Shown here: one piece after another, positions 34,285 to 55,916 of the stretch | How positions within the stretch are numbered: position 1 is the stretch's first letter | Layout of the letters: each line of letters starts with the position of its first letter | Source of the DNA: Opitutia bacterium | GTDB taxonomy: Bacteria; Verrucomicrobiota; Verrucomicrobiia; Opitutales; Opitutaceae | Length of the DNA: 59,070 bases | Reading direction: 5' to 3' | NCBI GenBank assembly: GCA_947472765.1 | Contig: CANJCM010000020.1 | Location: 1 to 59,070 of the forward strand | The notes under the pieces: model-generated | Seen by the model: only the letters and a program-made list of their open reading frames with translations | Told to the model about the DNA's origin: nothing | The model's database searches: none | Program-made: the position numbers and the translations under genes

Positions 34285-35570
34285 GTGGAAGGTGGGGCCC
34301 GTCCTAAGGGGTCGGGCCGTTACATGTTAGCGGTTGGCCGGCTGCCGCCTCTGCGCTGACCAACCAGGTACGAACGGGCCCCTCCGCGTCTGGACGGCGA
34401 GCTGACGGCGACCTAGCGGCGAGCTAGCCGCTTCTGGAGCGCGTCTGGACGGCATCTGGATGCCTTCTGGATGCCTTCTGGTCCCCATCTGGGGACGGTG
34501 TGATCCGCAGATGACGGAAGATTTCGAGCCGATGGGACGAGTCCGGGAGTAACCACTCACTTTCACTAAACTGGTACTAACCCGATCCGGGCATACCCGG
34601 GATTGGGGTTAGTGTGCCGTTAGCGTCCGTTAGTGGTTTGGCTCGAGCAGCCGCCTTAGGGGCCGGGCCGTTACTTGTTAGCAGGGCTTCCCGATCCGGC
34701 GCCAAACGCTCGGAACCTGCGGGTCTAAAGCGAAGCGGCTGGCGTACTCTTGCTCGTACGCGTGCTCTTGCTCGAAGCCGATCGAGCACGAGCAGGAGCA
34801 CGAACCACGAGCGCGATGGCTTTGAAGCCGAGTTGAGAGTTGAGGGCTGAGAGTTGAGAGCTCTCCGCGGCTCCGCGCCTCCGCGTGAGATGCCTTTGGT
34901 TCGGCGGGCGAATTGGGAGTTTGGAACCCTCTGCGTCCTCCGTGTCCTTCGCGTTCAAATGGTTCGGGCCCGAACCGGTGCGATCCGCAGATGACGGAAG
35001 ATTTAGAGCCGATGAGACGAGCCGCCGGGGGAAGGAAGACTGAGGGCAGACGGCAGACTCGGATCGAGCCCTCCTGCCCCAATCAAATCCCCAATCCTTT
35101 GCACAGAAGGTCGAGCCAAGGTCAGGCCAAGGGTTCCAATCCCCAGCCCCTTGGATCGGCCTTGGATTCGCCTTCTGTGCAAAGGCTCGGCCGCAGATCA
35201 GGCCCGCCGGCGAGCCGTTCGACGCCGCTCACGGCGTAAATCCCACGTCGATTTGAGGCCTTGAGCCGGCCGAAAGGCGGCGGCCCTACGAAAGGGCGCG
35301 ATCCTTCATCTTCAGGTATCTTCCGTCATCTGCGGATCTCTCCGCGGATCCGCGCCTCCGCGTGAGAGGCACTTGGTTCGGACTTGGATTGCCTTCTGTG
35401 CGATCGATTGGGCCCCCTGTACCGGCGGTCTTGCGTCCTCGCCAATCCGCGCCCCACGGTGGTGAACGCCGGGTGGAGGGTGAACGCGAAGAACCAGCCC
35501 GGCGGCCCCAAGTTGAATCCAGCTGCCGATCCGTCCTGAACGAATGCGCCCCCCGACCAAAGGTAAAAGC
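34285..35570. repeat. 1.3-kb spacer of composite repeat blocks
   Basis: No credible gene. 34552-34638 is a CACTAAC/GTTAGTG inverted array, preceded by the cgcagatgacggaagatttc block at about 34506-34534. 34660-34880 holds a longer repeat (ttagcagggcttcccg, then ccaaacgctcggaacctg and cgagcacgagca units) also found at about 40160-40380. 8-bp units ctccgcgg/ctccgcgc/ctccgcgt occur near 34861-34890 and 35340-35362. A 9-bp cctcngcgt array plus cgcagatgacgg is at about 34925-35015. 35093-35175 and 35370-35400 hold the ccttggttcg/ccttctgtgc 10-bp family, and 35205-35289 matches 29453-29545 inverted. Confidence 0.8.
34427..34492. repeat. Six tandem 11-bp units
   Basis: Units: gccgcttctgg, agcgcgtctgg, acggcatctgg, atgccttctgg, atgccttctgg, tccccatctgg. 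All six end in tctgg, two are identical, and the period is exactly 11 bp over 66 bp. This is not related by sequence to the other arrays but has the same short-period layout. Confidence 0.85.
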
Positions 35571-36653
35571 ATGAGAACGCTTCTTCTTGTACCCCTGCTG
35601 GTCGCCGCGCTTGGCGCCGCCACGATTGCGCGGGCCGCTCATCATGCGGCGGACAATCCACCGGCCGGCACGAATCCCGCGGCGTGGAATCCCAAAGCCG
35701 CCGCCACCTTTCTCGACGAGCGCGCTGACTGGTGGGCGGCGCAGAAGTTTGCCGCCAGGGATCACGACACCTATTGCGTCGCCTGCCACAGCGGCGTGCC
35801 TTTCATCCTGGGTCGCGCGGCCCTGCGCGAGCGGCTCGGTGAAGCCGGGATCGCCCCCAGTGCGAAACGTTTGCTGGAAAACGTCACCAAACGGGTCCGG
35901 CTCTGGGGCGAGGTGGAACCGTATTACAAAGGAGAGATCAAGGCGGTGGAATCACGCGGGACCGAGGCCGTGCTGAACGCATTAATCCTCGCGCCGGAAA
36001 ATAATGCGGACACCCGGTTGGCGTTCACGAACATGTGGGCCGAGCAAGGCAAGGATGGCGCCTTCCCTTGGTTGCAATTCAAACTCCAGCCGTGGGAAGC
36101 CCCCGATTCCGTCTACTACGGGGCCACGCTGGCCGCCGTGGCCCTGGGGCTGACGTCCACGGAGTATCGCGATTCCGCGGAGAATGCGGCGGGCGTCCAG
36201 GCCCTGAAGAAATACTTGCAGGATCAAGGGGGGGCGCAGTCGCTGATTCTCCGGGCGACGTTGCTTTGGGCCTCAACGAAGTTGCCCGGTTTGCTCACGC
36301 CGGCGCAGCAACAGGACATCCTAACGGAAGCGCTCGCCGCGCAGGCGGAAGATGGTGGCTGGAGCCTTGGCGCGGTGGTGGGCACTTGGGAGCGCCGGGA
36401 TAAGACTCCCCTGGAAACCCGGAGCGACGGCTACGCCACGGGCGTGATCACGCTGGCGTTGGTGCAATCCGGAGCGCGGGACCATCCGCAGGTCAAGCGG
36501 GCGCTCGCCTGGCTGGTCGCGAACCAGGATCCGACCGAAGGACACTGGGTCTCGTGGTCGCTGAACAAACAGCGGCCCGCGACGGATCGCGCGGCGCGCA
36601 TGATGGACGACGCTGCGACCGCCTACGCCGTGCTTGCGCTCACGGGACTGTAA
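35571..36653 (+). CDS. Exported terpenoid-cyclase-like protein with a heme c motif
   Basis: 360 aa from the ATG at 35571 (an earlier in-frame ATG at 35544 is less likely). Signal peptide (LLLVPLLVAALGAATIARA), then a CVACH heme-attachment motif (Cys69, Cys72, His73). The remainder consists of alpha/alpha repeats of the squalene-cyclase/prenyltransferase type: ILTEALAAQAEDGGWSLGAVVG, RALAWLVANQDPTEGHWVSWSLNK, DDAATAYAVLALTGL. Such fusions occur in Planctomycetota/Verrucomicrobiota. The role is unknown; heme binding suggests redox or electron transfer at the periplasmic side. It is not a cyclase on present evidence, as the DxDD motif is not seen. Confidence 0.82.
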   Translation: MRTLLLVPLLVAALGAATIARAAHHAADNPPAGTNPAAWNPKAAATFLDERADWWAAQKFAARDHDTYCVACHSGVPFILGRAALRERLGEAGIAPSAKRLLENVTKRVRLWGEVEPYYKGEIKAVESRGTEAVLNALILAPENNADTRLAFTNMWAEQGKDGAFPWLQFKLQPWEAPDSVYYGATLAAVALGLTSTEYRDSAENAAGVQALKKYLQDQGGAQSLILRATLLWASTKLPGLLTPAQQQDILTEALAAQAEDGGWSLGAVVGTWERRDKTPLETRSDGYATGVITLALVQSGARDHPQVKRALAWLVANQDPTEGHWVSWSLNKQRPATDRAARMMDDAATAYAVLALTGL

Positions 36654-36952
36654 TGACCGGGATTTGGAATCCTCCGCTCCCTCTGTGTCCTCCGTGTTCA
36701 AACGGTTCGGGATCGAGCCGGTGTCATCCGCAGATGTCGGAAGATTTCGAACCGATGGGACGAGTCTGGGAGTAACCACTAACTTTCACTAACCTGACAC
36801 TAACCCGATCCGGGCATGCCTTGGTCTGGAGTTAGTGTCCCGATAGTGCCCGTTAGTGGTTTGGCTCAGCCCGGGATTTGGAACCCTCTGCGCCCTCCGC
36901 GTCCTCTGCGTTCAAATGGATCGGGCCCGAGCCGGTGACTCGCAGCGGAGGC
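36654..36952. repeat. Convergent spacer with composite repeat block
   Basis: Contains the 9-bp cctcngtgt array (about 36665-36695), the cagatgtcggaagatttc block (about 36730-36760) and a full CACTAAC/GTTAGTG inverted array (36775-36861). A second 9-bp array (ccctctgcg, ccctccgcg, tcctctgcg) is at about 36886-36912. The genes on both sides converge here. No gene or clear terminator beyond these repeats. Confidence 0.75.
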
Positions 36953-37981
36953 TTACGTCATGCCGAAGCCCTGCTTGATGTGCTGGAAGAATTTCGTGAT
37001 CACCTCGGGCGAACCGCCACCCTCCAGGGCTTCGAAGGGCACAAAGCCGCGATAACCGGTGCGGACGATCGCCTCCTTGATTTTGGCCATGTCGGTGGCC
37101 TCGGCCTTTTCATTCCGGTAGACCTGTTCCTTGATCTGCCAGCTGCAGGCATACGGGATCAGCTTCTCGATTTCCGCGTAGGGGTCGCCCGTGCGGACGC
37201 TGCCGATGTCCAGCACGAGGCCGAGCCACTCGGAATCGACGGCCTGCATGAACTTGATGGTTTCGTCCGCCGTCTTGAGGTAGTCGTCGTGATGCTGGAG
37301 CGCGATCACGACTCCATGGTCACCCGCGTAGGCACAGATTTCCCGGAAGGCCGGCACCATGTATTCGGTGAGGACCTGATCGAAGGTCCTGCCCGCGGGG
37401 ACATTGTTGCCCGAAAACACCCGCAGGCCATACGCGCCCATTTTTTGGGCGACGTGAACCCAGTCCTTGATCAATTGAACGTCCTTTTGACGGGCCGCCG
37501 CATCCACTTGGGCGAAGTTGTTGCGGACGCCGGTGCAGTTGATCGAAATTCCGTTGAGGAAGCACCGCCGCTTGAAGTCGGCGATCACCTTGTCGCTCGG
37601 CACGGCCGGGTAACCGGTGAAATAGTAGCCCGTGGGATCCAGGCCATCGATGCCGGTCCTGGCGCAAAACTCGATGACATCATTCCACGTCATCGTGCTG
37701 GTGGCATTTCCCCCGCCCTTTTGGGCGCCGTCGCCACCCTTTCGGCCCCCTCCGCCCTTCCCCGCACCGCCGGCAGGAGCGGCGGCGCCTGGCGCTCTGG
37801 TTCCCCGGCTGAGGGGCCCATTGAACGAATAGGCATTCAAGCCAAACTTGATGTGAGTGCCGGAAAGCCGCGGCATTTCATTTTTGGCGAGAAGAGCACT
37901 GGGGCTGGAAACGAACGCGGCGGCGGCCATGCCACCAATTCCGCGGGTCAGGAAATCACGACGGGTATGGACAGTATTCAC
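36953..37981 (-). CDS. Tat-exported sugar phosphate isomerase/epimerase-like TIM-barrel protein
   Basis: 343 aa using the GTG at 37981, which places a Tat motif right at the N-terminus (MNTVHTRRDFLTRGIGGMAA). An ATG at 38041 would add 20 residues and bury the motif. The TIM barrel (xylose-isomerase-like, AP_endonuc_2 fold) spans about residues 65-340, with KADETIKF, WLGLVLDIGS and VPFEALEGGGSPEV as expected metal/substrate strands. Near residues 30-65 is a Gly/Ala-rich insert (GAGKGGGGRKGGDGAQKGGG), unusual for the family. The substrate is unknown; sugar or inositol isomerisation is typical. It is a single gene flanked by repeat spacers. Confidence 0.8.
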   Translation of the reverse strand: MNTVHTRRDFLTRGIGGMAAAAFVSSPSALLAKNEMPRLSGTHIKFGLNAYSFNGPLSRGTRAPGAAAPAGGAGKGGGGRKGGDGAQKGGGNATSTMTWNDVIEFCARTGIDGLDPTGYYFTGYPAVPSDKVIADFKRRCFLNGISINCTGVRNNFAQVDAAARQKDVQLIKDWVHVAQKMGAYGLRVFSGNNVPAGRTFDQVLTEYMVPAFREICAYAGDHGVVIALQHHDDYLKTADETIKFMQAVDSEWLGLVLDIGSVRTGDPYAEIEKLIPYACSWQIKEQVYRNEKAEATDMAKIKEAIVRTGYRGFVPFEALEGGGSPEVITKFFQHIKQGFGMT

Positions 37982-38504
37982 GATAGTAACAGGGGTGGTT
38001 CTAAGAGCGCTGCCAGGGTAGCCCAAAGCTAGGAGATGCATTTTGAGGCCGACAAGAGTTAAGGACGCAGGGATCCCATTTCGGTGGCCGGAAGATTTCG
38101 AGCCGATGAGGCGAGCCCGGGCGGACACCACTCACTTTCACTAACGTGACACTAACCCGAACCGGGCATGCTCGGGATTGGGGTTAGTGTGCCGTTAGCG
38201 TCCGTTAGTGGTTTGGCTGAGCCCGGGATTTGGGCCCCTCCCCACCCTCTGCGACCTCTGTGTTCAAACGGATCGGGACCGAGCCGGTGCGATCCGCAGA
38301 TGACGGAAGATTTCGAGCCGATGAGGCGAGCGGTACTTCATCTTCCGACATCTTCCGTCATCTGTGGATCCCTCACTGCCCGTGCCTGAGCCAGGCGCCA
38401 GCCACACCCCGCCCTGACGGGCAGCCGTCGCAGAGACGATCGGCATCTCAATCCTGAGGTTGCCCTGATTTGACGGACGGGGTTAGCAACTTTCAAAACC
38501 ACCC
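37982..38504. repeat. 523-bp spacer with inverted arrays
   Basis: A cggaagatttcgagccgatg block (about 38090-38110), a full CACTAAC/GTTAGTG inverted array (38127-38213), a 9-bp ccctctgcg-type array (about 38240-38265), a second cgcagatgacggaagatttc block (about 38296-38322), and the inverted three-unit array catcttccga/catcttccgt/catctgtgga at 38339-38369. This last is the reverse of the same block, so a large inverted pair exists. A putative promoter for the downstream gene would be near 38440-38490, but nothing clear is seen. Confidence 0.75.
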
Positions 38505-40130
38505 ATGAATACAGCCTGCCGTAACTTCGTTGATCGCGGTCGCCGCGACTGGTGCAAAGCCGCGGCTTCCGCCGGTATGGCGGTCGCCTTCCTTTCATTT
38601 GCGACCCTCCTGGCACCCTGGGCCGACGGGGCGGAGACGTTCCCCGGAACGGGAAGGTCGAACGGAGACGTCACGCTGTTTTCGTTCGACGACGTTTCAG
38701 TTCCGTTCACCCACAACCTGGGCCTGACGATGCATCGGCCGGAAAAGCTGGCGGAGAATCCGGTCGTCCGTCGCGGTGAAAAAGGAACGCCCGACGAGTT
38801 CGGAGTCCAATTCTATGGTTCGGTCGTTCGGGACGGAGACCGTTACCGGATGTGGTATGTGGCGGTCGACTCCGAGTTGGAGAAGGACCCCCGGAGTGTT
38901 CAAATCTGGCGTCCGGCGTATGCCGAGAGCCGGGATGGCATTCACTGGACAAAGCCGGAGTTGGGGCTGGTCGAATACCGCGGCGATCGGCGGAACAATC
39001 TGATCGCGATCGAGCCGGCGCCGCTGGGCATAATCAACTTGAAGGTGATCGTCGAACCCGACGATCCCGATCCCACCCGTCGTTACAAGATGACGGCCCA
39101 GGCGTGGTGGCGGGAAGGAGAAGGCCGGGGCCGCGGCACGCTGGCGGTGCTCTTCAGCGCCGATGGGCTCCGCTGGCACGCGGCCGTCAAAAGCCCGCCG
39201 GTTGGCGGCCTGCTACCCAAGGAGGACCTGCTTCTCCCCGAATATCACTTCGAGGCGGCTGGCGGACTCTACCGCTGGAACGGGGTTTATTTCGCAACCG
39301 GCCAGAGCGCTCCTCCCGGCGTGCGGGGAACACGCGAATACTCGGGACGTGAAATTCTACTTCATCGTTCGCCGGACTTTATCCACTGGTCGCGCACCGC
39401 CAGCGTCGGCTTTTTGCGCGGCAGCCAGCACCAATCATTTCCGTATGGGGAAGGCGAAGAATGCCATGAAGGCGTGAGTGTCTGGAACCGCGGCAACGTG
39501 CTGCTTGGGCTCTATGGTCAGTGGCACGGCGGAAAACAGTGGAAGGATCGGACAGTCGACCTGGGTTTCCTGGTGAGTAACGACGGCCTGCATTTTCGCG
39601 AACCGGTGCCGGAGTCGGTCTTCCTGCCACGCGGCCACGACGGGGCGTGGGACCAAGGTGGCGTACTGCAAGGGCAGGGTTTCGAAAACGTGGGGGATCG
39701 GACGTTTATCTGGTACGGAGCCTGGGATCCGCGGGTGGGGACGGAATACAAGCCGAGGGGCGGCGTCGGGCTCGCGACGCTCCCCAGGGACCGGTTTGGT
39801 TCCCTCTCCCCCAAGGACACGACTCATCCGGCGGAACTCATAACCGCCCCGGTGGAATTGAAGGCGGGCACCAGGCTCCTGGTAAATGTGGACGGGCTTT
39901 CTGAACAGGGGGTGCTGCGGGTCGAGTTGCTAGATCTCCAGGAGCGACCCCTGCCGCAGTTCGCCGGGGTCAACGCGGCAGTTGTGCGCCAGTCCGGGTT
40001 GGCCACTCCGGTTACCTGGAGCGGCGCGGCCCAATTCGGGGAAGTTCGAGGGCCGACCAGAATCCGTGTGATTTTTGACGGGGACCGTCGACAGCAGGTC
40101 GCAGTGTATGCGCTCTACCTCCAAAATTAG
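38505..40130 (+). CDS. Exported beta-propeller protein of the GH32/GH43-like superfamily
   Basis: 541 aa. Signal region (AGMAVAFLSFATLLAPWADGAE). Four blade-like motifs of the S-x-D-x3-W type are visible: SRDGIHW (about 141), SADGLRW (about 219), SPDFIHW (about 289) and SNDGLHF (about 351). Together with YRMWYVAVD and FIWYGAWD this indicates a five-bladed propeller as in the GH32/43/62/68 superfamily. A C-terminal beta domain (about 440-541) may be a sandwich. Catalytic acids cannot be fixed without alignment. A role in polysaccharide or glycan handling outside the cytoplasm is likely. Single gene between repeat spacers. Confidence 0.78.
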   Translation: MNTACRNFVDRGRRDWCKAAASAGMAVAFLSFATLLAPWADGAETFPGTGRSNGDVTLFSFDDVSVPFTHNLGLTMHRPEKLAENPVVRRGEKGTPDEFGVQFYGSVVRDGDRYRMWYVAVDSELEKDPRSVQIWRPAYAESRDGIHWTKPELGLVEYRGDRRNNLIAIEPAPLGIINLKVIVEPDDPDPTRRYKMTAQAWWREGEGRGRGTLAVLFSADGLRWHAAVKSPPVGGLLPKEDLLLPEYHFEAAGGLYRWNGVYFATGQSAPPGVRGTREYSGREILLHRSPDFIHWSRTASVGFLRGSQHQSFPYGEGEECHEGVSVWNRGNVLLGLYGQWHGGKQWKDRTVDLGFLVSNDGLHFREPVPESVFLPRGHDGAWDQGGVLQGQGFENVGDRTFIWYGAWDPRVGTEYKPRGGVGLATLPRDRFGSLSPKDTTHPAELITAPVELKAGTRLLVNVDGLSEQGVLRVELLDLQERPLPQFAGVNAAVVRQSGLATPVTWSGAAQFGEVRGPTRIRVIFDGDRRQQVAVYALYLQN

Positions 40131-41202
40131 CATTCGCGCGAAGGGGCGGCCGTAGGGGGTCGGGGCGTTACTTATTATCAGGGCTTCCCGCTCCGGTGCC
40201 AAACGCTCGGAACCTGCGGGTCTTTAGCGAAGCTGCAGCCGTGCTCTTACTCGTACGCGTCCTCTTGCACGAAGCCGATCGAGCACGAGCACGAATCACG
40301 AGCGCGATAGCTTTGAGGCCGAGTTGAGAGTTGAGGGCTGAGAGTTGAGAGCTCTCCGCGGCTCCGCGCCTCCGCGTGAGATACACTTGGTTCGGCGGGT
40401 GGTTTGGGAGTTTAGAACCCTCTGCAGTGCTGTATTGGTGGATCGCTCATTTCCGGGAGAATTTTGAACAGGAAGATCGGGGAGTTCGGGAAGCAATGGT
40501 TTCGACCTCTCCCCGCTCTCCCCGGCCTTCCTGTTTAATCCCGGGCGGTATCCTTTGGTTACGGCTCCGCCGCGCTATGTCCTCCGCGTTCAAATGGTTC
40601 GGGCCCGAGCCGGTGCGATCCGCAGATGCCGGAAGATTTCGGGCCGATGGTGCGAGTCAGGGAGTAAACCACTCATTTTCACTCATGGGGGATTAGTTGA
40701 GAGTTGAGAGATGAGGGTTGAGAGCTCTCCGCGGCTCCGCGCCTACGCGTGAGATTACTCGGTTCGGACTGGGATTGCCTTCTGTGCGATCGATTGGGCC
40801 CAAACTTTTTCACAGAAGGCGAACCAAGGAATACCAAGGCAGAGGCGTCAGGTCGGGGATCGGGAGTTTGGAACCCTCTGCGTCCTCCGCGTCCTCCGCG
40901 TTCAAATGGTTCGGGATCGAGCCGGTGTGATCCGCAGATGACGGAAGATTTCGAGCCGATGGTGGGAGCCGGGGAGTAAACCACTCATTTTCACTCATGG
41001 GCACTAATCCGAGCCGACTTCTTGGCTCGGACTTGGATTGGCCTTCTGTGCAAAGGCTCGGCTGCGGATCAGGCCCGCCGGCGAGCGGCGGCCCTACGAA
41101 AGGACGCGATCCTTCATCTTCGGGCATCTTCCGTCATCTGCGGATCACCTAGCCCCTTGGACAGCACTCGTCCGGCGGTGGAGTCAGCGCGGTCGAGCTG
41201 AC
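40131..41202. repeat. 1.07-kb spacer of composite repeats
   Basis: 40160-40380 repeats the block at 34660-34880 (including ccaaacgctcggaacctg and cgagcacgagca units, then gttgagagttgagggctgag and the 8-bp ctccgcgg array). 40463-40545 carries an inverted pair of the 9-bp ttcccgacc/ttcctgttc family. Blocks of cgcagatgccggaagatttc and half CACTAAC arrays are at about 40620-40690 and 40932-41008. 40755-40830 holds the ccttctgtgc family with its inverted arm. A catcttcggg/catcttccgt/catctgcgga array is at about 41115-41146. No credible gene, although frames stay open on both strands. Confidence 0.78.
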
Positions 41203-45296: not shown

Positions 45297-45901
45297 GGGC
45301 GGAGCGGAACGGAGGCGGTGGACGCCTGGGGAGTTGAGGGATGAGAGTTGAGAGACGGTTGGGGACGAGAGTTGAGCGCTCTCCGCGGCTCCGCGCCTCC
45401 GCGTGAGATGCACTTGGTGCGGCGGGCGAATTGGGGGTTTGGAGCAGATTAAGTTGAAGTGTAGCCGATCAGAAATTGCGGGCGCGCACGAGGCGCGCCC
45501 CTACATCGATTGTCATTTCGTGTAGGGGCGTGCCTCGTGCACGCCCAAATATGGCTACGGCATTCTTTAACCCGCTCTAGAACCCTCTGCGTCCTCCGTG
45601 TCCTCCGCGTTCAAATGGTTCGGGATCGAGCCGGTGTGATCCGCAGATGCCGGAAGATTTCGAGCCGATGGGTGAGCGGTGGCCCTACGAAGACGGCGTC
45701 CCTTTATCTTCCGGCATTTTCCGTCATCTGCCGATCTATCCGCAGCTCCGCGTGAGAGGCACTTGGTTCGGCCTTGGATTGGCCTTCTGTGCGATGGGTT
45801 GGGCTCAAACCTTTGCACAGAAGCACCTCCCCGTTTTGGACGGACCTTCCGTTTTGCGCCTTGCCCAAGTTTCTTAAGCGAATGAACTTAGCCGCTCCAC
45901 C
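45297..45901. repeat. 605-bp spacer, first copy of a 193-bp direct repeat
   Basis: 45330-45400 holds gagagttgag units and the 8-bp ctccgcgg array. 45480-45672 is a composite (inverted REP pair 45480-45504/45522-45546, tggctacggcattctttaac, 9-bp cctctgcgt array, cgcagatgccggaagatttc block). This stretch recurs nearly unchanged at 46703-46895, on the other side of the PEP-CTERM gene. 45709-45741 is an inverted cttccggcat-type array, and 45760-45825 the ccttctgtgc family. The gene downstream starts at a TTG at 45902. Confidence 0.85.
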
Positions 45902-46612
45902 TTGAAAACTTCATCGCTCGGGTTTTTCGCCTGCTTCCTCGTCGCCGTCCTCACGGCTTCTGCCCAAATCACGTTCACGGTCAACGGATCCACCACGTCC
46001 GCGGCCCTCGGCTACACCTCGGGTCAGGCCACGACCTTCAGCTTCGTGCTGAACGATTTCGCCCCCACCCTGCCGACGGGCTCGGTTTCGGTCGGCAATT
46101 TTTTTGAATGGAAGGACGATAACACCGCGACCGATCCCGCGATCTGGACCAGCGTCACCGGCACGGGGCTCTCCGGCACCTGGACCCGCCCGGTGACGGA
46201 CGGCTCGACCGCGATTTCCTACATCGACGCGTATGCCGCCGGTGGTCAGCTGTGGTTGATGGCGGGCACCGTCTTCGGCGGCGACACCGGCCTGACGGTC
46301 GGCGGGCAGTCGTTCAAGACGCTGATTCTGGGCGCCAGCTACTCCGGCCTGGATTTCTCCCCCGTCACCGGCGCCCTCGCGGACCCCTCGGATTATTTCG
46401 GCAACCATCTCGGCAGCTACGGTGCCAGCTCCACGAATGTCGCCGTGTTGGAAAACGGCATTGGCGGACAGGTCCACTTCAACATCAGCAGCATCGTGAT
46501 CAGCTCCATCCCCGAGCCCTCGACCTATGCGGCGCTCACGGGTGCCTTCGTTCTCGGCGGCACGTTCCTGATGCGTCGTCGTCGCTCGGCGACACAGAAC
46601 CCAAAAGAGTGA
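45902..46612 (+). CDS. PEP-CTERM sorted exported protein
   Basis: 236 aa. The start is a TTG at 45902: an in-frame stop lies upstream at 45875 and no ATG intervenes. The signal peptide MKTSSLGFFACFLVAVLTASAQ is well formed (cleavage after ASA). The body is Gly/Ser/Thr-rich beta, as in many PEP-CTERM exoproteins. The C-terminus is a full sorting signal: SIPEPSTYAALTG motif, hydrophobic stretch (AFVLGGTFLM), basic RRRR. It should be processed by an exosortase encoded elsewhere and linked to the surface or matrix. The gene is bracketed by two 193-bp direct repeats (45480-45672 and 46703-46895). Confidence 0.86.
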   Translation: MKTSSLGFFACFLVAVLTASAQITFTVNGSTTSAALGYTSGQATTFSFVLNDFAPTLPTGSVSVGNFFEWKDDNTATDPAIWTSVTGTGLSGTWTRPVTDGSTAISYIDAYAAGGQLWLMAGTVFGGDTGLTVGGQSFKTLILGASYSGLDFSPVTGALADPSDYFGNHLGSYGASSTNVAVLENGIGGQVHFNISSIVISSIPEPSTYAALTGAFVLGGTFLMRRRRSATQNPKE

Positions 46613-46996
46613 CGGCCGTAAGGGGGTCGGGCAGTTCGTTGTTAGCAGCCTTCCCGCTCCGGTGCCAAACGCTCGGAACCTGCGCGTCTAGAGTGAAGCT
46701 GCGGGCGCGCACGAGGCGCGCCCCTACATCGATTGTCATTTCGTGTAGGGGCGTGCCTCGTGCACGCCCAAATCTGGCTACGGCATTCTTTAACCCGCTC
46801 TAGAACCCTCTGCGTCCTCCGTGTCCTCCGCGTTCAAATGGTTCGGGACCGAGCCGGTGAGATCCGCAGATGACGGAAGATTTCGAGCCGATGGGAAAGG
46901 CCCGGACGACGGAGGACGGGCCGCGGACGACCTGCAACAGACGACGGCACCTGAGCTTGGATTCGCAATTTACCGCTTCTGATCCACACTTGTCCC
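46613..46996. repeat. Spacer with second copy of the 193-bp direct repeat
   Basis: 46617-46700 repeats the ttcccgctccggtgccaaac block also seen near 34680 and 40185. 46703-46895 repeats 45480-45672 with only about four mismatches and no length change, including the inverted REP pair (46703-46727, 46745-46769). Beyond 46900 the sequence is unique. No other gene evident before 46997. Confidence 0.85.
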
Positions 46997-47233
46997 GTGG
47001 TCGTCATTCGTCGCCTCACAGACCGGCATCGCGCCTATACGGGAATTTTCCTTCGCGGTGAGCCTCCGCGCATTTTTCCCACCAGCGATATGGAGCACGG
47101 TCGCATCCTGCAGATCTACAAACAAGACCGTCACTACGCGGACATCGTGAACGATTTCTCGGAATACGCGATCGGCTCCGATGCGCCCTTGCCCGCTGCC
47201 CCAGCAGCCGCGGCCGAGCGGCCGCCCCCTTAG
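46997..47233 (+). CDS. Possible small protein, unrecognised
   Basis: 78 codons from GTG at 46997. The middle (IFLRGEPPRIFPTSDMEHGRILQIYKQDRHYADIVNDFSEY) has a balanced, protein-like composition unlike the Arg/Pro/Ala-rich translations of repeat DNA, and the tail is Ala/Pro-rich. There is no signal peptide, and I do not recognise a family. It is 92 bp upstream of the serine hydrolase gene on the same strand. It could be a real short gene, a gene fragment, or chance. Confidence 0.4.
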   Translation: MVVIRRLTDRHRAYTGIFLRGEPPRIFPTSDMEHGRILQIYKQDRHYADIVNDFSEYAIGSDAPLPAAPAAAAERPPP

Positions 47234-47324
47234 CTAGTGCGATGCGCGTCGGGTCCAAGCCTTTGCACAGAAGGCTCGGGCTTGAACGGCTGAGCACTCC
47301 CCGTCACCTCTGTTCATTCTCCCC

Positions 47325-48593: not shown

Positions 48594-48771
48594 GAGGTCG
48601 AAGGAAGGCGAATCCAAAGACGATGCGGAGGGCGGAGGTCAGACGCCAGAGGACGGACGACAGACGACGGCCGGGCACTTGGTTTGGACTTGGATTGGCC
48701 TTCTGCGAAATGGATTTCTGGACGGCGCCGCCTACATCAACGATGACTGAGGCTCTCCTGTCCCACCCGAG

Positions 48772-49662
48772 ATGCCTGACTCCCAGAAGATTCTCCTGAT
48801 CGACGACGACGCCACGATGTCGGAAATGATCCGCTTGATGGTGGGTGCGTTCCGCCGCGGCACTTTTTCCGTGACGCATGCCGCCACTTACGAAGAGGGT
48901 TTGAAGGAACTGCTGACCGGCGCCTACACGCTTTGTCTGCTCGACTACCATCTCGGAGCGCGGGATGGACTTGAATTACTGCGGGAGGCAAAGGCCCAGC
49001 AGTGCCATACGCCGATCATCATTCTGACCGGCGACAGTGGGGAGGAAACCGACCTGGCCGCGATGGATGGCGGCGCGGCCGACTTCATGAAAAAGATCGA
49101 GCTCAACCCGCGCGGACTCGAGCGCGCGGTCGGCTACGCCTTGAAGATGTCCGAGACGGTCGGGGAACTGCGCGATCTGGCCTCGGTCGACGAACTGACC
49201 CAGTTGCCCAATCGGCGCGAGTTCGACCGTCGGCTGAAGGAGGAATGGCAGCGCGCCGGGCGTTTCCGCCGCCCGCTTTCACTCGTGATGATTGACCTCG
49301 ATCGCTTCAAAGCGATCAACGACACCTACGGCCACCCGGCCGGCGACGAAGTCCTGCGGCATGCGGCGCGGCTGCTGACCAGTCAAACCCGCCAGATGGA
49401 TTGCGTGGCCCGGCTCGGTGGCGACGAATTTGCACTGCTGCTCGTCGGAACCGATCGGGCCGGAGCCGAGATCGTAGCCTCCCGCGTCCGACAGCTCGCC
49501 GCCACGACCCCCTGCCGCATCCCGGCGAGAAATCTCTCCCTCGAGGTGGGAGTCAGCGCCGGAGTCGCGACGTGGCCGGACGACGCCCTGACGCAGGGGT
49601 CCCTGGTGGCGTCGGCCGACGCGGCCTTGTACGAGTTCAAGAGACTGCACCGGACGGCATAG
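48772..49662 (+). CDS. Receiver-GGDEF diguanylate cyclase (WspR/PleD-like)
   Basis: 296 aa in the cytoplasm. The receiver domain (about 5-125) has the acidic pair DDD (11-13), phosphoacceptor Asp58 (LLDYHLG) and Lys107/108. The GGDEF domain (about 135-296) has an intact GGDEF (216-220), the metal/GTP Asp in IDLDRFKAIND, and RQMD at 207-210, the position of the c-di-GMP inhibitory I-site (RxxD). It should make c-di-GMP when phosphorylated and be product-inhibited. No partner kinase is adjacent, so the phosphodonor is unknown. The spacer before it (48594-48771) contains only a short acggacgacagacgacgg unit and a piece of the ccttctgc family. Confidence 0.92.
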   Translation: MPDSQKILLIDDDATMSEMIRLMVGAFRRGTFSVTHAATYEEGLKELLTGAYTLCLLDYHLGARDGLELLREAKAQQCHTPIIILTGDSGEETDLAAMDGGAADFMKKIELNPRGLERAVGYALKMSETVGELRDLASVDELTQLPNRREFDRRLKEEWQRAGRFRRPLSLVMIDLDRFKAINDTYGHPAGDEVLRHAARLLTSQTRQMDCVARLGGDEFALLLVGTDRAGAEIVASRVRQLAATTPCRIPARNLSLEVGVSAGVATWPDDALTQGSLVASADAALYEFKRLHRTA

Positions 49663-50080
49663 GCTTCGGGGCGGCCGTAAGGGGTCGGGCTTTTGCACAG
49701 AAGGTCGAGCCAAGGGCGACCCAAGCCCTCTCACGCGGAGTCGCGGAGACGCGGAGAGTACCGGTGCTCTCTCGGCCCGGGCAAACCACTAACGGACACT
49801 AACGGCACGCTAACCCCGGACAAGTGTGAGTGCCCAGTGAGTGAAAATGAAGGCGGCTGTAAAGGGTCGGGCCGATCTCCAATCTATTGAACAGGAGGCA
49901 CACCGAGATCGGGCGGAGGGCGGATTGGAAACCTCCCCACCCTCTGCGTCCTCTGCGTTCAAACGGTTCGGACGCGAGCCGGTGCGATCCGCCGATGCCT
50001 CGGTGTCTCGGTCGTAAAACGAGCTTCGTGTCCTTCGCGGTTGCGCCCGGTTTGTTCGGCTGATCAACTCCCCGTCACCC
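49663..50080. repeat. 418-bp spacer with repeat fragments
   Basis: The ccttctgtgc family arm (inverted: ttttgcacagaaggtcgagccaagg region) at about 49690-49722, 8-bp gcggagac units (49737-49758), a CACTAAC-type array with degraded right side (49785-49843), and a 9-bp cctctgcgt array (about 49940-49965) with cgatgcctcgg units (49990-50010). A terminator for the GGDEF gene is not evident. No gene. Confidence 0.7.
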
Positions 50081-50875
50081 ATGAAACGTCGTGACTTCGT
50101 TAAATCCTCCCTCGCGGTGGCCGGTGCCGCGGCGGTCAGTTCCACGTCGGTGCTCGGCGCCGCGGAATCGCGCCCGAACGCGGGCCGTGAATTCTATGAA
50201 CTGCGGCTCTACCACCTGCGCCGGGGGCCGATGCAGAAGCGGTTCGATGACTACTTTCGCGACGCTGCGATTCCCGCGCTGAACCGCGCCGGCATTCCGA
50301 AGGTGGGCGTGTTTGGCGTGGTCGTCGGCCCGGACAACCCGACGATGTATGTGCTCATCCCGCACGCCTCCATGGAGTCGTTCGCCGCCGCCCACGAGCG
50401 GGTACAGGCCGACGCCGCGTACCAGAAAGCCGGGGCCGAATTCCTCAACGTGCCGCCGACGGATCCCGCCTACATCCGGGTCGAGAGTTCACTGCTGCGC
50501 GCGTTCACCACTATTCCGAAACTCGAAGTCCCGGCCGCGAAGCCGCGGATCTTCGAACTGCGCACGTACGAGAACCCCAGCAAGCGGACCAATCTGAAGA
50601 AGATTGAGATGTTCGATCAGGGCGAGATTGCCATCTTCCGCCGGACCGGACTGACGCCGGTGTTTTTTGGCGAAACGATCATCGGCACCAAGATGCCGAA
50701 TCTCACCTACATGCTGGTGTTCGACGACATGGTGGCGCGCGAGAAATGCTGGGATACGTTCCGCGCCGACCCGGAATGGAAGAAGCTGAGCACCACGCCG
50801 GGCTTCACCGATCCCGAGCTTGTGACCGATATCAGCAATGTGATCCTGCGTCCGACGCCGTATTCGCAAATTTGA
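50081..50875 (+). CDS. Tat-exported NIPSNAP-family protein
   Basis: 264 aa with a twin-arginine signal (KRRDFVKSSLAVAGAAAVSS). Two NIPSNAP/dimeric alpha-beta barrel modules follow: FYELRLYHLRRGPMQKRFDDYF (about 38-59) to about 135, and IFELRTYENPSKRTNLKKIEMF (about 160-182) to the end. NIPSNAP domains are ferredoxin-like folds of unclear biochemical role. Export by Tat is seen in planctomycete and verrucomicrobial members. The ATG at 50081 is the first codon of the RR motif. It has no operon partner; both sides are repeat spacers. Confidence 0.85.
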   Translation: MKRRDFVKSSLAVAGAAAVSSTSVLGAAESRPNAGREFYELRLYHLRRGPMQKRFDDYFRDAAIPALNRAGIPKVGVFGVVVGPDNPTMYVLIPHASMESFAAAHERVQADAAYQKAGAEFLNVPPTDPAYIRVESSLLRAFTTIPKLEVPAAKPRIFELRTYENPSKRTNLKKIEMFDQGEIAIFRRTGLTPVFFGETIIGTKMPNLTYMLVFDDMVAREKCWDTFRADPEWKKLSTTPGFTDPELVTDISNVILRPTPYSQI

Positions 50876-51304
50876 GGGCGGAGTTGAGAGTTGAGGGTTG
50901 AGAGCGCTTGGTTCGGCCTTGGTTTGCCTTCTGTGCAAGTCCAAGGCCCAAACCTTTTCACAGAAGGCGAGCCAAGGAATACCAAGCGAAGACAGCACTT
51001 CTCGACGATCCAAGCGTCGGAGTTGGAACGCGGAGGACGCAGAGGGCGCGGAGGTTTCGGGGTCGGACCCAAACCCCAATCCACTTGAACAGGAGTCGGG
51101 CCGAGGTCGGACCGAGCCGGTGTGATCCGCAGATGACGGAAGATTTCGAGCCGATGGGAAGAGCCGGGGAATAACCACTAATTTTCCCTAATCGGGCACT
51201 AATCCGAGCCGGTCGAAGGGACGGCTCGTGCTCGAAGCGGCCTCCGGGATTAGTGTCCGATGAGTGTCAATTAGTGGTTCGCCAGCTCTGGGCCTGGAGC
51301 CCGA
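50876..51304. repeat. 429-bp spacer with composite repeats
   Basis: gttgagagttgagggttgag units (50882-50903), then the ccttggtttg/ccttctgtgc 10-bp family with inverted arm (50906-50990), a reverse 9-bp acgcggaggacg array (51028-51055), the cgcagatgacggaagatttc block (51128-51155), and a full accactaat/attagtg inverted array with a longer loop (51174-51279). No gene. The DUF1552 gene ends at 51305. Confidence 0.75.
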
Positions 51305-52645
51305 TCACACGTCCGACAGAAAATCCAGATGGCCATTCGAGTTCCCCAACCGGTCGGTGGGAACTCCGGCCACGTCCAGCATCGTGAGGTGGAGGTTGCT
51401 GATCGGAGTACCTTCCTTAAAGGCCACATGCCGGCCGGACTTGATGCGCCCGCCCGCCCGGCCGGCGAGGAGCGTGGGGCAACGGCTGTGATCGTGACGG
51501 TTCGGATCGCCCATCGAGGCGCCGTAGGCGATCGCACAGTTATCCAGCAGTGTCCCGTCGCCTTCACGCACAGACTTCAGTCGTTCGATGAAGTACGCGA
51601 ACTGCTCGAGATGGTAGCATTCAATCTTCGTCACCTTCTCGATCAGCTCCGGGCTGTTGCGATGGTGGGAGACGGCGTGATGCGCCTCGGGCACTCCAAT
51701 TTCAGGATACGGCCGCACGCCGCCTTCCCGCGCCATCATGAACGTCCCGACGCGGGTCATGTCGGTCTGCAGCGCGAGCACCATCAGATCGAACATGAGC
51801 CGCGCGTGCTCGGCGTAGGTCGCGGGAATACCCTCGGGTTTGCTGGTCCCCGCAGGAATCATCTGCCGCGCGTCCGTTTCCTGACGCCGAATTCTCACTT
51901 CCAGCTCCCGGACCGAGGTCAGGTATTCATCGAGCTTTCGGCGGTCATCGGCCCCGAGTTCGCGCTGCAGGCTGTGGGTGCTCTGCAAGGTCAGATCGAG
52001 AATGCTCTGCCGGTACAGCCGTTGATTCTCCCGCTCCCTCGGATCGGCCTTCACATTCATGCCGCCGAACATCCGCTCGAACAGCAGGCGCGGATTGATT
52101 TCCGGCGGGAGCGGCTCCGTGGGGGACTTCCAGGCCAGCGCTTGATAAGCGCACGTGGCGCCGTCGCAGTCCCCGACAGTCCGGCTGTCCTCGCAGGCCA
52201 GCTCGAGCGAGGCGAACTTCGTCTCCCGTCCCAGCGCGCGGGCGGCAATTTGATCCGCCGTGACCCCGGCGCGATAATCCGCGCCCATCGTGGGTTTGAT
52301 GCGCACGCCCGAAAGGTAGGTGCCCACGGCCCGGCAATGATCGCCGCCGGCCTCGCCCAGGATCGCCCCGGTTTCGTAGGCGCTGAGTCCGCTCATCACC
52401 AGGATGTCCTCCCGGAACCGCTCGAGCGGTTTCAAGATCCGCGGGAATTCGAAGTCACGGCCGGTGGTCGTCGGATCCCAGTACTGCGTGATCATGCCGG
52501 ACGGCGCATAGACGTGCATCATGCGGACCGGACTCTTCGGCGTGGCGGACGCCTGCGCGAAAGCCGGCGTCATGGCGTCGAGCCACGGCAACGCGATGAC
52601 GGCACCCGTGCCACGGAGGAAGGTTCGGCGGGAGAGATGTTTCAT
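51305..52645 (-). CDS. DUF1552 family Tat-exported protein
   Basis: 446 aa. Twin-arginine signal (MKHLSRRTFLRGTGAVIALPWLDAM) with the PWLD motif that typifies DUF1552 proteins. Then GLSAYETGAILGEAGGDHCRAVGTYLSG, VTADQIAARALGRETKFASLELACED, TYAEHARLMFDLMVLALQTDMTRV and HHAVSHHRNSPELIEKVTKIE, with many conserved His residues. The function is unknown; the fold is alkaline-phosphatase-like by family. It is encoded 4 bp into the end of the upstream DUF1592 gene (ATGA overlap), the usual gene pair in Planctomycetota and Verrucomicrobiota. Confidence 0.9.
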   Translation of the reverse strand: MKHLSRRTFLRGTGAVIALPWLDAMTPAFAQASATPKSPVRMMHVYAPSGMITQYWDPTTTGRDFEFPRILKPLERFREDILVMSGLSAYETGAILGEAGGDHCRAVGTYLSGVRIKPTMGADYRAGVTADQIAARALGRETKFASLELACEDSRTVGDCDGATCAYQALAWKSPTEPLPPEINPRLLFERMFGGMNVKADPRERENQRLYRQSILDLTLQSTHSLQRELGADDRRKLDEYLTSVRELEVRIRRQETDARQMIPAGTSKPEGIPATYAEHARLMFDLMVLALQTDMTRVGTFMMAREGGVRPYPEIGVPEAHHAVSHHRNSPELIEKVTKIECYHLEQFAYFIERLKSVREGDGTLLDNCAIAYGASMGDPNRHDHSRCPTLLAGRAGGRIKSGRHVAFKEGTPISNLHLTMLDVAGVPTDRLGNSNGHLDFLSDV

Positions 52646-55110
52646 GGGGCTCGTGAGGTTTGCCGGTCGTGGACGGGCGCGTCGGTGCTGGCGGTGAGGG
52701 TCGGCGCGTGACCGCGGTTTCGCATTTGAAAAGGAGCGCTGTCGACGATCGCCGTGACGACCTCGGAGAAACGCCGTTCGTTCTGTTCGGAATGCCGGGC
52801 CACTTTCTCGACGGCGGGCCGATCGTAGCTTTCGAGGCCACGCCCGAGCGCAAAGATCATCAGCTTCGCGGAGAACGCCCGGATGAACCGCGGCGAATCC
52901 GCCCGCAGAATCGCCTTCAGCTCCTTCGACCCGACGAACGTCCGGTTGCCGGGAAGTCGGCCGGAAGCGTCGACCTGAAAACCGCCGTCCCGGTTTCTCC
53001 AGCGTCCGATCGCATCGTAATTCTCGAGTCCGAATCCGAGCGGATCCATCCGGGCATGGCAGGAGGCGCAGGCCGCGTTGCTCCGGTGTTGTTCGAGCTG
53101 CGCGCGAAACGAAACCGTCTTCCCCACCGGGGCTTCATCGAGGGCCGGCACATTCGGTGGCGGCGGGGGCGGCGGAGAGTTGAGTATGTTTTCCAGCAGC
53201 CATTTGCCGCGGATCACCGGCGACGTCCGCGTGGGATAGGAGGAGACCGTGAGGACGCTCGCGTGGGTCAGGATGCCGCTGCGCTCATTGCCATCGAGTT
53301 CGATGCGGCGAAACTCGCGCCCCTCGACGCCCGACATCCCATAGTGCCGCGCGAGGCGTTCGTTCACGAAGGTGAATTTGCCGTCGAGGAAATCAAGGAC
53401 GTCCCGGTCCTCCGTAACGACGGCGTGGAAGAACAACTCGGTCTCCTGCTGGATTGCGTCGCGCAATTCGGGATCGAAATCCGGAAAGGTCCCGCGGTCG
53501 GGCGCATTGACGTCGAGATTGCGCGTCTGGAGCCACTGGCTGGCAAAGTTTCGGGCCAGTGACCGCGCCCTCGGGTCCGCGAGCATCCGGCGCACCTGGG
53601 TGTGCAGCACCTCCGGCTGATGCAGGCGCTCCCCGGCGGCCAGTTCCAGGAGCGTGTCATCGGGCATGCTGCTCCACAGGAAATAGGACAGCCGCGAGGC
53701 CAGCTCGAGGTCGGTAATCCGATACAGGTCACGCTCGCGCGTTTCCCGGGGGTCGCGCTCGATGCGAAACAGGAAGTGCGGCGACACCAGCATCGCGGTA
53801 AGGCCGACCTGAATACCTTCCTCGAAGGATCCGCCGCGCTCGCGGACCAGATCGGTCAGCCGGGTGAACTGCGCAATCTCGCTGTCCGAAACCGGCCGGC
53901 GATAGGCGCGCGGCAGCAACCGGGCGAAAATCTCGCGGGCATAGCCGGGACTGGCGTCGGCTGCGGGCGCACCCTTGAAGAAAATCTGGCGATAGCTGTC
54001 GGTGTCCTCCTTGGCCACCTGTTCAGCGGGACCGACGATCTCCATCACCGTGGGATACGGCGGAAGGATCTTGGGCGGGCCTTTCTTGGACGGTTTCGGC
54101 GCAGGCTCCGGCGGCAGGGCTACGATCTTCGCTTCGAACACATGCGTGCCGCGCGGGATTCGGACACTGCGGGCATAGATCGAACGGTCCTGCCCCTCGT
54201 AGCTCTCGAAAACGACCCTTTGGCTGGCGACCTCCTGGCCGTCGATGAAGATGGAGCCGACGTGGCGGGTGCCCACCGGGTTGCCCTGCTCCCAGCCGAC
54301 GCGGATGGTGTAAACGCCGTCCACTGGGATGTCGTGCTTCGTGCGGACCAGGTCACGAAATTGCTGGCCCATCGTCTCGGTGTTGTAGCGCGCGGCGACT
54401 GCGGTGACCTTGGTCAACGGGATGGCGAGTTGGGCCACATCCTCCGCCGCCTTCAGGTATTTTTCGGTGAGGACCGGGGAAAGCGACAGGACATCGCCGA
54501 TGTTGTCGAAGCCGTAGCCGGAAGGGTCCGGCGGAAAGTCCTCCGTAATGCGCAGGTTTACGCCGAGGAGATCGCGGATGGTGTTGTTGTATTCGATCCG
54601 ATTGAGCCGGCGCGCGACGACCCGGCCGGGATTCAGCGGGGCAGCGAAGTCCACGGCCGCATAATATTGATCGATCGATTCGATCGCCGCAGCGGCTTGC
54701 TCGGGGGACGGCTGCGGCTCCCCTTCCGGCGGCATCTCCATGGCGCGCATTTTGTCCGCGACCGTCTCCCAAATTTTGCGCTGCTTCAGGGCATCGGCCG
54801 GGGTCGCCGTGAGGAACTTCTCCAGATCGAGATCGCCCTCGAGGTCCGCGGGATTGTGGCAGCTGACGCAGCTGGCCTTGAGCAACGGCTTGAGTGCCGT
54901 CTCGAATTTCGTCGCGGGCGGTGGGGCCGCGGACGCATTCTGCGCGGGCGGAACGGAGGGAGGAACCGAAGACGCCGACGAGTCCGAAGGAGTTTGGGAC
55001 CCGGTGGAGCATCCCGCGAGGGCGATGAACGCAAACGACCATGCCAAGGGTCCCCAACTCAGGCTCGAGAAAAGCGTGGGGCTGGATTGGGGCCGGGGGG
55101 TAGCTACCAT
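52642..55110 (-). CDS. DUF1592/DUF1588/DUF1585 cytochrome-type lipoprotein
   Basis: 822 aa from the ATG at 55110 (the open frame continues to 55359 through repeat DNA). It starts with a lipoprotein signal: LAGC at 31-34. A heme c motif CVSCH (81-85) sits in a PSCyt1-like domain, followed by DUF1587 (RRLNRIEYNNTIRDLLGVNL), a beta-rich insert with a proline/lysine linker (PPEPAPKPSKKGPPKILPP), DUF1592, DUF1588, and the DUF1585 end with CASCHARMDPLGFGLENYD (second CxxCH). It is paired with the DUF1552 gene by a 4-bp overlap, and the two products probably act together in the periplasm. It is a homologue of the orphan at 41203-44007. The substrate is unknown. Confidence 0.9.
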   Translation of the reverse strand: MVATPRPQSSPTLFSSLSWGPLAWSFAFIALAGCSTGSQTPSDSSASSVPPSVPPAQNASAAPPPATKFETALKPLLKASCVSCHNPADLEGDLDLEKFLTATPADALKQRKIWETVADKMRAMEMPPEGEPQPSPEQAAAAIESIDQYYAAVDFAAPLNPGRVVARRLNRIEYNNTIRDLLGVNLRITEDFPPDPSGYGFDNIGDVLSLSPVLTEKYLKAAEDVAQLAIPLTKVTAVAARYNTETMGQQFRDLVRTKHDIPVDGVYTIRVGWEQGNPVGTRHVGSIFIDGQEVASQRVVFESYEGQDRSIYARSVRIPRGTHVFEAKIVALPPEPAPKPSKKGPPKILPPYPTVMEIVGPAEQVAKEDTDSYRQIFFKGAPAADASPGYAREIFARLLPRAYRRPVSDSEIAQFTRLTDLVRERGGSFEEGIQVGLTAMLVSPHFLFRIERDPRETRERDLYRITDLELASRLSYFLWSSMPDDTLLELAAGERLHQPEVLHTQVRRMLADPRARSLARNFASQWLQTRNLDVNAPDRGTFPDFDPELRDAIQQETELFFHAVVTEDRDVLDFLDGKFTFVNERLARHYGMSGVEGREFRRIELDGNERSGILTHASVLTVSSYPTRTSPVIRGKWLLENILNSPPPPPPPNVPALDEAPVGKTVSFRAQLEQHRSNAACASCHARMDPLGFGLENYDAIGRWRNRDGGFQVDASGRLPGNRTFVGSKELKAILRADSPRFIRAFSAKLMIFALGRGLESYDRPAVEKVARHSEQNERRFSEVVTAIVDSAPFQMRNRGHAPTLTASTDAPVHDRQTSRAP

Positions 55111-55916
55111 GACATGGGGTGTCCCAAAGGGAGACGTATCTCGAAACTGCGCCCGACGGCTCGCAAGCGGAAACTCGGCGACGGCGATCCGGCGGAGTTC
55201 GCACGCGGAGGCGCGGAGACGCGGAGGGCGCAGAGGATTCGGACCGGACCCGGACTCGATCCATTTGAACAGGAGTCGAGCGGAGGGCGGGATCGAGCCG
55301 GGGTGATCCGCAGATGACGGAAGATTTCGAGCCGATGGGACGAGCCAGGCATTAACCACTAATTTTCACTCATCGGACACTCACTCGATCCCGGCAGAAG
55401 AATTTTCTCCGCGGCTCCGCGACTCCGCGTGACGGGCCCTTGGCCCGGCCTTGGTTTGCCTTCTGTGCAAATCCGAAAGGCCCGAGCCTTTGCACAGAAG
55501 GCGAGCCAAGGGGACACCAAGGGATCGCCTCCTTGGCGGTGGATTGGAGGATTGGAAACCTCCCCTCCCTCCGTGTCCTCCGCGTTCAAATGGTTCGGGA
55601 TCGAGCCGGGGGATCCGCAGATGACGGAAGATTTCGAGCCGATGGATGGAGCCGGGCATTAACCACTAATTTTCACTAAGCGGACACTCACTCGATCCCA
55701 GCAGATGAGCTTTCTCCGCGGCTCCGCGACTCCGCGTGGGAGGCCCTTGGCCCGGCCTTGGTTTGCCTTCTGTGCAAATCCGAAAGAGCCCGAGCCTTCG
55801 CACAGAAGGCGAGCCAAGGAGACACCAAGCGAGGGCAGCCGGGCGGTGGCTCAAGGCTGCCTCCGAGATTAGTGTCCGATTAGTGTCAACGAGTGGTTCG
55901 CCCGGCTTGGGGCCGG
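55111..55916. repeat. 806-bp spacer with nested inverted repeats
   Basis: 8-bp acgcggaggcgc-type units (55205-55230) and the cgcagatgacggaagatttc block (55310-55338) lead into half CACTAAY arrays at 55355-55390. Two related segments follow: 55405-55515 and 55710-55835, each with the 8-bp ctccgcgg array, the ccttggcccgg/ccttggtttg/ccttctgtgc array and its inverted arm. A full nested structure is visible: accactaat array at 55662-55695, ccttctgtgc arms inside, and the inverted gattagtg array at 55867-55899. No gene. Confidence 0.8.

Follow-up and report, generated by a model that had tools for sequence, protein, structure and literature searches.

Short tandem arrays in the spacers of an Opitutia genome: probable ends of two types of tiny mobile element and derivatives of these without the gene

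Introduction

Short arrays of heptamers, octamers and decamers are on record from bacterial spacers, and no cause for them has been generally accepted. We consider here those of a 59,070-nt contig (CANJCM010000020.1, our C20; this whole stretch is called the window) from the 4.97-Mb genome, in 157 contigs, of an Opitutia bacterium of the Verrucomicrobiota. The spacers between its genes hold array families that an original prediction had confined to positions 34427-55899 and described as mutually unrelated, with a shared plan of about three tandem units; it suggested a common process behind them and a search for a linked enzyme. We present evidence that these arrays probably derive from two kinds of very small mobile element, in which one gene stands between two inverted arms; an array would be either such an arm or a derivative that has no gene. 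The first would carry a GxxExxY gene (PF13366/TIGR04256) between arms of three units of about 7 nt at a period of 8-11, and the second a gene for a four-helix protein (PF05635/TIGR02436, the 23S rRNA intervening-sequence protein) between arms made of a heptamer array.

Results

Arrays in the spacers of the genome

Arrays of period 7-12 were detected with Tandem Repeats Finder (score at least 34) in an 859-kb sample comprising the window and 800 kb from the same genome (G+C 65%), with genes predicted by a simple codon model. The 123 kb of non-coding sequence holds 216 arrays (1.76 per kb) and the 736 kb of coding sequence 173 (0.235 per kb), of which 122 have a period of 9 or 12; for period 7 the counts are 93 non-coding against 8 coding. 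In the spacers alone we found 207 arrays, against 3-18 in 20 dinucleotide shuffles, which bears out the expectation of many short spacer arrays of period 7-11 and differing sequence. The three-unit plan holds for periods 8, 9 and 10, with commonest lengths of 23, 27 and 28 nt, and fails for period 7, where most arrays have 4-5 units and the commonest length is 31-33 nt (34 of the 93). There is little growth of arrays past a fixed length.

Within the window arrays occur from base 7 onward, so that the interval first given for them is too narrow. Between 34 and 56 kb several families travel together inside a composite repeat, which has a 307-bp period at 55288-55849. The window has no match in Rfam. 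The arms of the genome show no strand preference relative to genes (28 tandem-sense, 31 tandem-antisense); outside this genome the strand test rests on crude gene calls at viral and genome_contigs loci, with many arrays inside spurious frames. Arrays are present in 28 of 93 convergent and 18 of 102 divergent spacers, a slight deficit in the latter.

A common grammar of the arms

The families are not all unrelated, as had been supposed: most of those with period 8-11 follow one plan, AAC-CACnnAn three times on one strand with linkers of 1-4 bases, and the heptamer arrays, read by eye, follow GA-K-T plus a family-specific triplet. A first arm detector, which required agreement between units, returned 111 CAC-type arms, 108 of them non-coding; among pairs at most 150 bp apart, 39 are inverted with their inner ends facing, 11 inverted with their outer ends facing and 25 direct. 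Read by eye, CAC-type arms open with AACCAC and show neither of the terminal tags of REP repeats, GTAG and CGTC. The divergent last unit would correspond to the outer unit, the one with the leader.

A second detector without the demand for agreement yielded 93 arms. Of these, 57 are CACT arms, where the final base of the three units reads TTT in 27, CCC in 22 and is mixed in 8, so that units are alike in 49, compared with a mean of 13.6 and a maximum of 23 after shuffling. In the 12 paired CACT hairpins both arms have the same unit type in 6, the chance level. Of 36 bases in their facing first linkers 6 match, against a rate of 0.42 in random arms. It is the arm rather than the hairpin that is kept uniform.

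GxxExxY and four-helix genes between inverted arms

Some GxxExxY proteins start with peptides resembling translated arrays, and from this came the lead to PF13366. We scored the best inverted match between the two flanks of a gene, counting scores of at least 30. A first set of PF13366 genes gave 36 of 44, against 5 of 150 controls; over the phylum, 92 of 111 GxxExxY genes have inverted flanking repeats, against 10 of 259 control genes of the same geometry, all drawn from this one array-rich genome. One example (L346) reads AACCACGAAATACACAAAATACACGAAA, GxxExxY gene, TTTCGTGTATTTTGTGTGTTTCGTGGTT. In a strict test for three cores at a spacing of 8-11, 60 of the 92 GxxExxY arms qualify (0.25 when shuffled), and at a spacing of 7 none of the 92 does, nor any of 23 from other phyla. 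Inverted repeats, mostly heptamer arrays, likewise flank 25 of 31 four-helix genes in the phylum, with three cores at spacing 7 in 16 of these 25 and at spacing 8-11 in 4. In two GxxExxY loci, L365 and L397, the gene has inverted ends of another kind, which read CATTGAA..GAAAACCGCTTCGCGGACA and lack three units.

The association extends to other phyla. In 30 genomes chosen among the listed stretches of a strict pattern scan, 21 have PF13366 and 19 have PF05635. Inverted repeats flank 23 of 27 GxxExxY genes, one of them from a euryarchaeon and others from Acidobacteria, Chloroflexi, Bacteroidota, Cyanobacteria, Myxococcales, Planctomycetes, Spirochaetia and Gemmatimonadetes, and 18 of the 23 arms pass the strict test at spacing 8-11 (shuffled 0.2). 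For four-helix genes the figures are 21 of 28 with inverted repeats and 12 of 21 in the strict test at spacing 7. No flanking repeats were found at four of these GxxExxY genes (L483, L495, L496, L504) and seven of the four-helix loci.

The genome of the window itself contains seven PF13366 genes and six PF05635 matches, five of the latter above the curated cut-off. All seven GxxExxY genes and all five of these four-helix genes have inverted arms; the sixth PF05635 match has none. By eye, the units of the twelve elements are all different: CACGAAG (contig C9), CACGAAA (C6), CACTGAT/CACTAAT (C13), ACGCAGAGG (C64), GAACAGGAAG..CGGGAAG (C2), CACAGATGG (C114) and CGCAAAAAGG (C7) at GxxExxY genes, and GAGTCAG (C4), GAGTTGA (C16), GAGTTTG (C5), GAGTTAG (C43) and GATTGCC (C97) at four-helix genes. 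An element within the genome thus exists for the ggcgatt, cctccgcgt, cacagatgga, cactaac and gagttga families. Among 211 dispersed arrays 69 strictly match an arm of one of these elements, against 0 in five shuffles; CACTAAC is among the arrays that miss a strict match, having diverged. The idea of a common process with a linked gene, rather than descent from one repeat, is in this way supported, with PF13366 tied to periods 8-11 and PF05635 to period 7. A Y1 transposase, nickase or reverse transcriptase had been named as a linked enzyme to look for; the two linked gene families that emerged are neither Y1 transposases nor reverse transcriptases, the latter not having been searched for. As a separate observation, the C6 element (L033) and a GxxExxY element of another genus (L370, genome G204) have similar arms at what is apparently the same transporter-gene junction.

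Arms vary with the protein tree and with the site

On a tree of 110 GxxExxY domains, 76 rows were labelled by unit type, that is, by the base ending the unit (G, T or A) or by an AGGAT unit. Unit type needs 9 changes, against a mean of 36.4 after shuffling, with none of 200 shuffles as low; near-copies contribute to this figure and many forks of the tree are unresolved.

The junction of gatA and gatB, surveyed in 30 of 59 matching genomes of the window's family, displays the elements in different states. It is empty, with a gap of -4 to 29 nt, in nine genomes including our own (6 nt); filled by a GxxExxY element of 457-721 nt in eight; filled by a four-helix element in two (L568, L569); and occupied by a 221-nt insert resembling a remnant in one. 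The other ten have inserts of 45-119 nt, one of which (L552) is plainly a CACGAAA arm pair without a gene; by eye several look like arm pairs and some do not. Empty and filled sites are seen between species only. More than one insertion at this junction is indicated by the two four-helix elements and by those short inserts that belong to other families. By eye no target duplication is evident there, the species compared being far apart. The arms begin no more than about 20 nt from the stop codon of gatA, which may explain why TAA or TGA often leads arms.

Distribution among genomes and viruses

The pattern AACCACNNA-n-CACNNA-n-CACNNA is found in 225 of the phylum's 387 genomes, and the window's genome has 190 matches to it against 1 to a reversed control pattern. 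A stricter CAC pattern found at least 116 stretches in species genomes, and among the matches listed are many phyla and two archaeal records. Also among the matches listed, the base after CACNGA is the same in all three units of 133 of 147 arrays (about 9 by chance), and neighbours at most 150 bp apart are inverted with inner ends facing in 15 cases and with outer ends facing in 2. Of 36 array-rich genomes, with 29-271 pattern matches each, 35 have PF13366, against 10 of 37 pattern-free genomes; the two sets were hand-picked within the phylum (p = 1e-10, a statistic that ignores ancestry).

At the array-bearing spacers of a stretch of contig C11, comparison by eye with two genomes of the same genus found none of the same arrays. 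Conversely, one spacer that is array-free here holds a heptamer-like array in one of these relatives (G010). Not every array is species-specific: next to its counterpart of the gene at 51305, G010 also has a CGCGGAG array, together with a CTTGG/CTTCTGTG module. Two further observations concern such comparisons. One orthologous spacer (L096, L097) has GTAG-type palindromes in both relatives and CACTAA arms here, and on C11 (L047, 15091-17327) one gene is inverted in the relative G004, not in G010, with arrays flanking both sides here.

Among viral contigs (L221-L340) arrays are common and, by eye, often directly precede a ribosome-binding site and a start codon (for example L311, L323, L331). 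GxxExxY is nearly absent from viral contigs, with five pattern matches and two relatives; GxxExxY genes were found at 0 of 120 array-bearing viral loci and 4 of 116 genome_contigs loci. A survey, made with no prior idea, of neighbour genes recurring around arrays returned mostly phage proteins and no lead.

The two proteins

The GxxExxY proteins match TIGR04256 and, above the curated cut-off, PF13366, and for four of them PF13366 is the sole Pfam match. Residues E29, Y32, D69, E79 and K81 are invariant in 17 aligned sequences, two others having D at E79. A structural model from five sequences (pLDDT 92.4) has a PD-(D/E)XK fold, with its best match to 4ic1 (SSO0001, a Cas4-like protein; Z 10.6); a sequence search of the PDB at E 0.01 found no relative. 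The likeness to Cas4-like and other PD-(D/E)XK nucleases is thus one of fold alone, and we assign the modelled protein to the PD-(D/E)XK superfamily and to nothing narrower. Given the conserved D..(D/E)xK, GxxExxY is a predicted nuclease for which a cutting step is plausible.

For the four-helix protein, the relatives 2gsc and 2rld are PDB entries with five chains, and Xanthomonas S23p is called a homopentamer in an excerpt of PMC4990558. A heptamer array of 31-33 nt can accommodate five cores of 4 nt with four linkers of 3 nt, which would fit one protein subunit per array unit. One four-helix protein (L465) has a weak match to Avd of diversity-generating retroelements (NF033474, E 1.9e-8, below cut-off).

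Array families of the window

The families are collected in Table 1. By eye, CGCGGAG-like ends occur at a gene of another genome (L410), and the plan ACAGAAGG, similar to the ccttgg arms, at the gene ends L433 and L509. The tctgg array, originally counted among the families, has no link to any element.

Table 1. Array families of the window, with representative positions and their links to elements of the genome
Family	Position	Strand	Further copies	Link to an element
CACTAA three-unit arms, inverted pair	19901..19968 (arms 19901-19928, 19941-19968)	none		plan of C13 GxxExxY gene ends; below strict match threshold
CACTAA arms, inverted pair	20124..20191	none		
CACTAAT array	33653..33680	+		
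CACTAA arms, inverted pair	34554..34633	none		
CACTAA arms, inverted pair	36777..36858	none		
CACTAA arms, inverted pair	38129..38208	none		
CACTAA arms, inverted pair	51176..51276	none		
GAGTTGA heptamer array	34830..34860	+	40321, 40695, 44410, 45331, 50881	family of C16 four-helix gene ends
GATTGCC heptamer array (ggcgatt)	25560..25641	+		family of C97 four-helix gene ends
ACGCAGAGG period-9 array	36885..36911	-	40875, 44279, 49941, 51028	family of C64 GxxExxY gene ends
CACAGATGGA period-10 array	108..136	-	7, 27344, 29695	family of C114 GxxExxY gene ends
inverted pair GAACAGGAAG..CGGGGAG within a period-9 array copy	40468..40534	none		like C2 GxxExxY gene ends, by eye
CGCGGAG period-8 array (ctccgcgg)	34863..34885	-	40354, 40727, 44120, 49733, 55204, 55407, 55714	partner gene in this genome not found
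CACAGAAGG/CCAAGG arms (ccttggtttg..ccttctgtgc), inverted pair	35107..35174	none	44159, 45762, 48677, 49701 (arms)	partner gene in this genome not found
CATCTTCCGT period-10 array	41115..41143	-	38339, 44087	partner gene not found
CACnGAGTG period-9 array (cacagagtg)	16783..16809	+	17239, 26206	partner gene not found
tctgg period-11 array, 4.6 copies	34431..34481	-		no element link found

Two other repeats of the window may be mentioned: a tandem 37-nt repeat (TTGTCAACAGTCAAGACGTGTCCCC...) at 33910-33988, by eye like the inverted ends of a Y1/RAYT gene on contig C49 (L006), and a strong palindrome repeat (GGGCGCGCACGAGGCGCGCCCCTACATCG..) between array copies at 45440-45580 and 46690-46800. RAYT or Y1 enzymes were considered as the linked enzyme and set aside: the readable flanks of the seven Y1 genes of this genome show other inverted ends, a weak comparison made by eye, with minus-strand loci read as plus and no case-control.

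Discussion

We think it probable that the mini-arrays are the ends of GxxExxY and four-helix elements together with gene-less derivatives of them. Each protein would bind the units of its own element and, once bound, would bring both arms together. The element could then be copied or moved to a new spacer, frequently to a place directly after a stop codon, and so, in trans, could gene-less arm pairs.

The closest parallels lie among small elements already known. Like miniature inverted-repeat elements and insertion sequences, these have terminal inverted repeats both around a gene and in gene-less copies, and they present empty and filled sites, as at gatA-gatB between species. Short tandemly repeated heptamers are found in the spacers of cyanobacteria, and the four-helix genes of Iningainema and Scytonema (L522, L524) have heptamer arms. 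Repetitive extragenic palindromic (REP) sequences and REPINs are small dispersed spacer repeats mobilized by RAYT transposases (PMC3733652, in excerpt); as there, the repeats often form inverted pairs and the genome holds a gene with repeats of that kind on its flanks, but here the partner is a PD-(D/E)XK or four-helix protein instead of a Y1 transposase, and the arms consist of tandem units without the GTAG/CGTC tag. In Geobacter metallireducens, multicopy class 2 consists of three tandem TCTCCGTS[Y] repeats in opposite-strand pairs, as in our genome, alongside sets of four or five heptanucleotide repeats (PMC2700814); by our reading the reverse complement of the class 2 repeat fits the CACGGAGA unit, whereas that account, as excerpted, describes predicted regulator sites or RNA elements and makes no link to GxxExxY or four-helix genes. 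The 23S rRNA intervening sequence of Coxiella, called selfish, has terminal inverted repeats, an S23p gene and, upstream of it, three tandem heptamers (GACAGAT; PMC4990558, in excerpt). S23p is a protein of the PF05635 kind; the four-helix genes described here, by contrast, lie between protein genes, such as gatA and gatB, with heptamer arms on both sides. In the literature covered, which left most subscription journals outside, we met no paper joining such arrays to GxxExxY, and the link of four-helix proteins to heptamers only in that Coxiella paper, where the excerpted text does not generalize it.

Among other explanations, the least improbable, though we think it unlikely, is that the genes are passengers: some other enzyme, perhaps an unknown transposase or a reverse transcriptase, would move the arms, and the proteins would be accessory or selfish cargo. 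The four-helix protein is not known to have a catalytic site, that of L465 has the weak Avd match (E 1.9e-8, below cut-off), and arrays abound in viral contigs where GxxExxY is almost absent. Yet unit type tracks the GxxExxY tree, each gene copy of the genome has arms of its own, and the nuclease motif is conserved. Somewhat less credible is the idea that the arrays serve the host, as regulatory or nucleoid-protein sites, and that both gene families merely carry such sites, for instance as their own operators. This is the published reading for the G. metallireducens repeats (PMC2700814, in excerpt), and both the likeness of units within arms, as expected of binding sites, and the slight deficit of arrays in divergent spacers accord with it; however, the arms enclose the genes from either side, inverted relative to each other, show no strand preference, were seen by eye in neither relative at the C11 spacers compared, and at gatA-gatB are missing or belong to different families.

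Two further explanations seem to us very improbable, the second slightly more so. If the arms acted as RNA, with hairpins ending transcription or protecting messages, paired arms could indeed fold; the lack of strand bias, the match of facing first linkers at 6 of 36 bases and the chance-level agreement of arm types in the CACT hairpins, and the absence of Rfam matches in the window argue otherwise. Replication slippage, as the process that creates and homogenizes arrays, would account for units being alike in 49 of 57 arms, but hardly for the little growth beyond a fixed length, for one sequence grammar across many phyla, or for inverted arms around two gene families.

Against the mobile-element interpretation itself several points have to be set. 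We saw no movement, excision or target duplication. Looking for empty sites inside the genome produced two candidates, neither clear, and some of the elements at gatA-gatB, the GxxExxY ones, may stem from one shared insertion. No catalytic site is known in four-helix proteins. The score threshold of 30 was picked after the first PF13366 gene set; it leaves 19 of 111 GxxExxY genes without flanking repeats. Of the 92 arms 32 do not pass the strict test, being degenerate or other inverted repeats, with ends of another kind at L357, L365, L397, L403 and L423. The comparison of array-rich with pattern-free genomes is hand-picked and uncorrected for ancestry, and in it PF05635 is also commoner in the array-rich set (34 of 36 against 24 of 37). 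Strict matches to own elements cover only 21 of 60 arrays in the window, and 11 of 39 between 34427 and 55899; the ctccgcgg, catcttccgt, cacagagtg and ccttgg families have no partner gene in this genome; and G010 carries the two modules at the gene at 51305 described above.

Taking the two kinds together, we advance a wider reading tentatively, with more doubt than belief: that GxxExxY and four-helix elements constitute an unrecognized class of transposable element, present in bacteria and in one archaeon at the least, and that their ends follow a code. An arm would have as many units as its protein has subunits in the oligomer, so that a pentameric four-helix ring would go with five heptamer cores and a GxxExxY trimer with three units, and the sequence of a unit would be read by the protein copy that it flanks. 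Most period 7-11 spacer arrays of prokaryotes might then be such ends, moved in trans even into phage genomes without the genes.

Should the mobile-element interpretation prove true, the arrays would be tied to two very common proteins, GxxExxY and the four-helix protein, both of which would thereby gain a role, and the intervening sequences of 23S rRNA would fall within a large family of elements.

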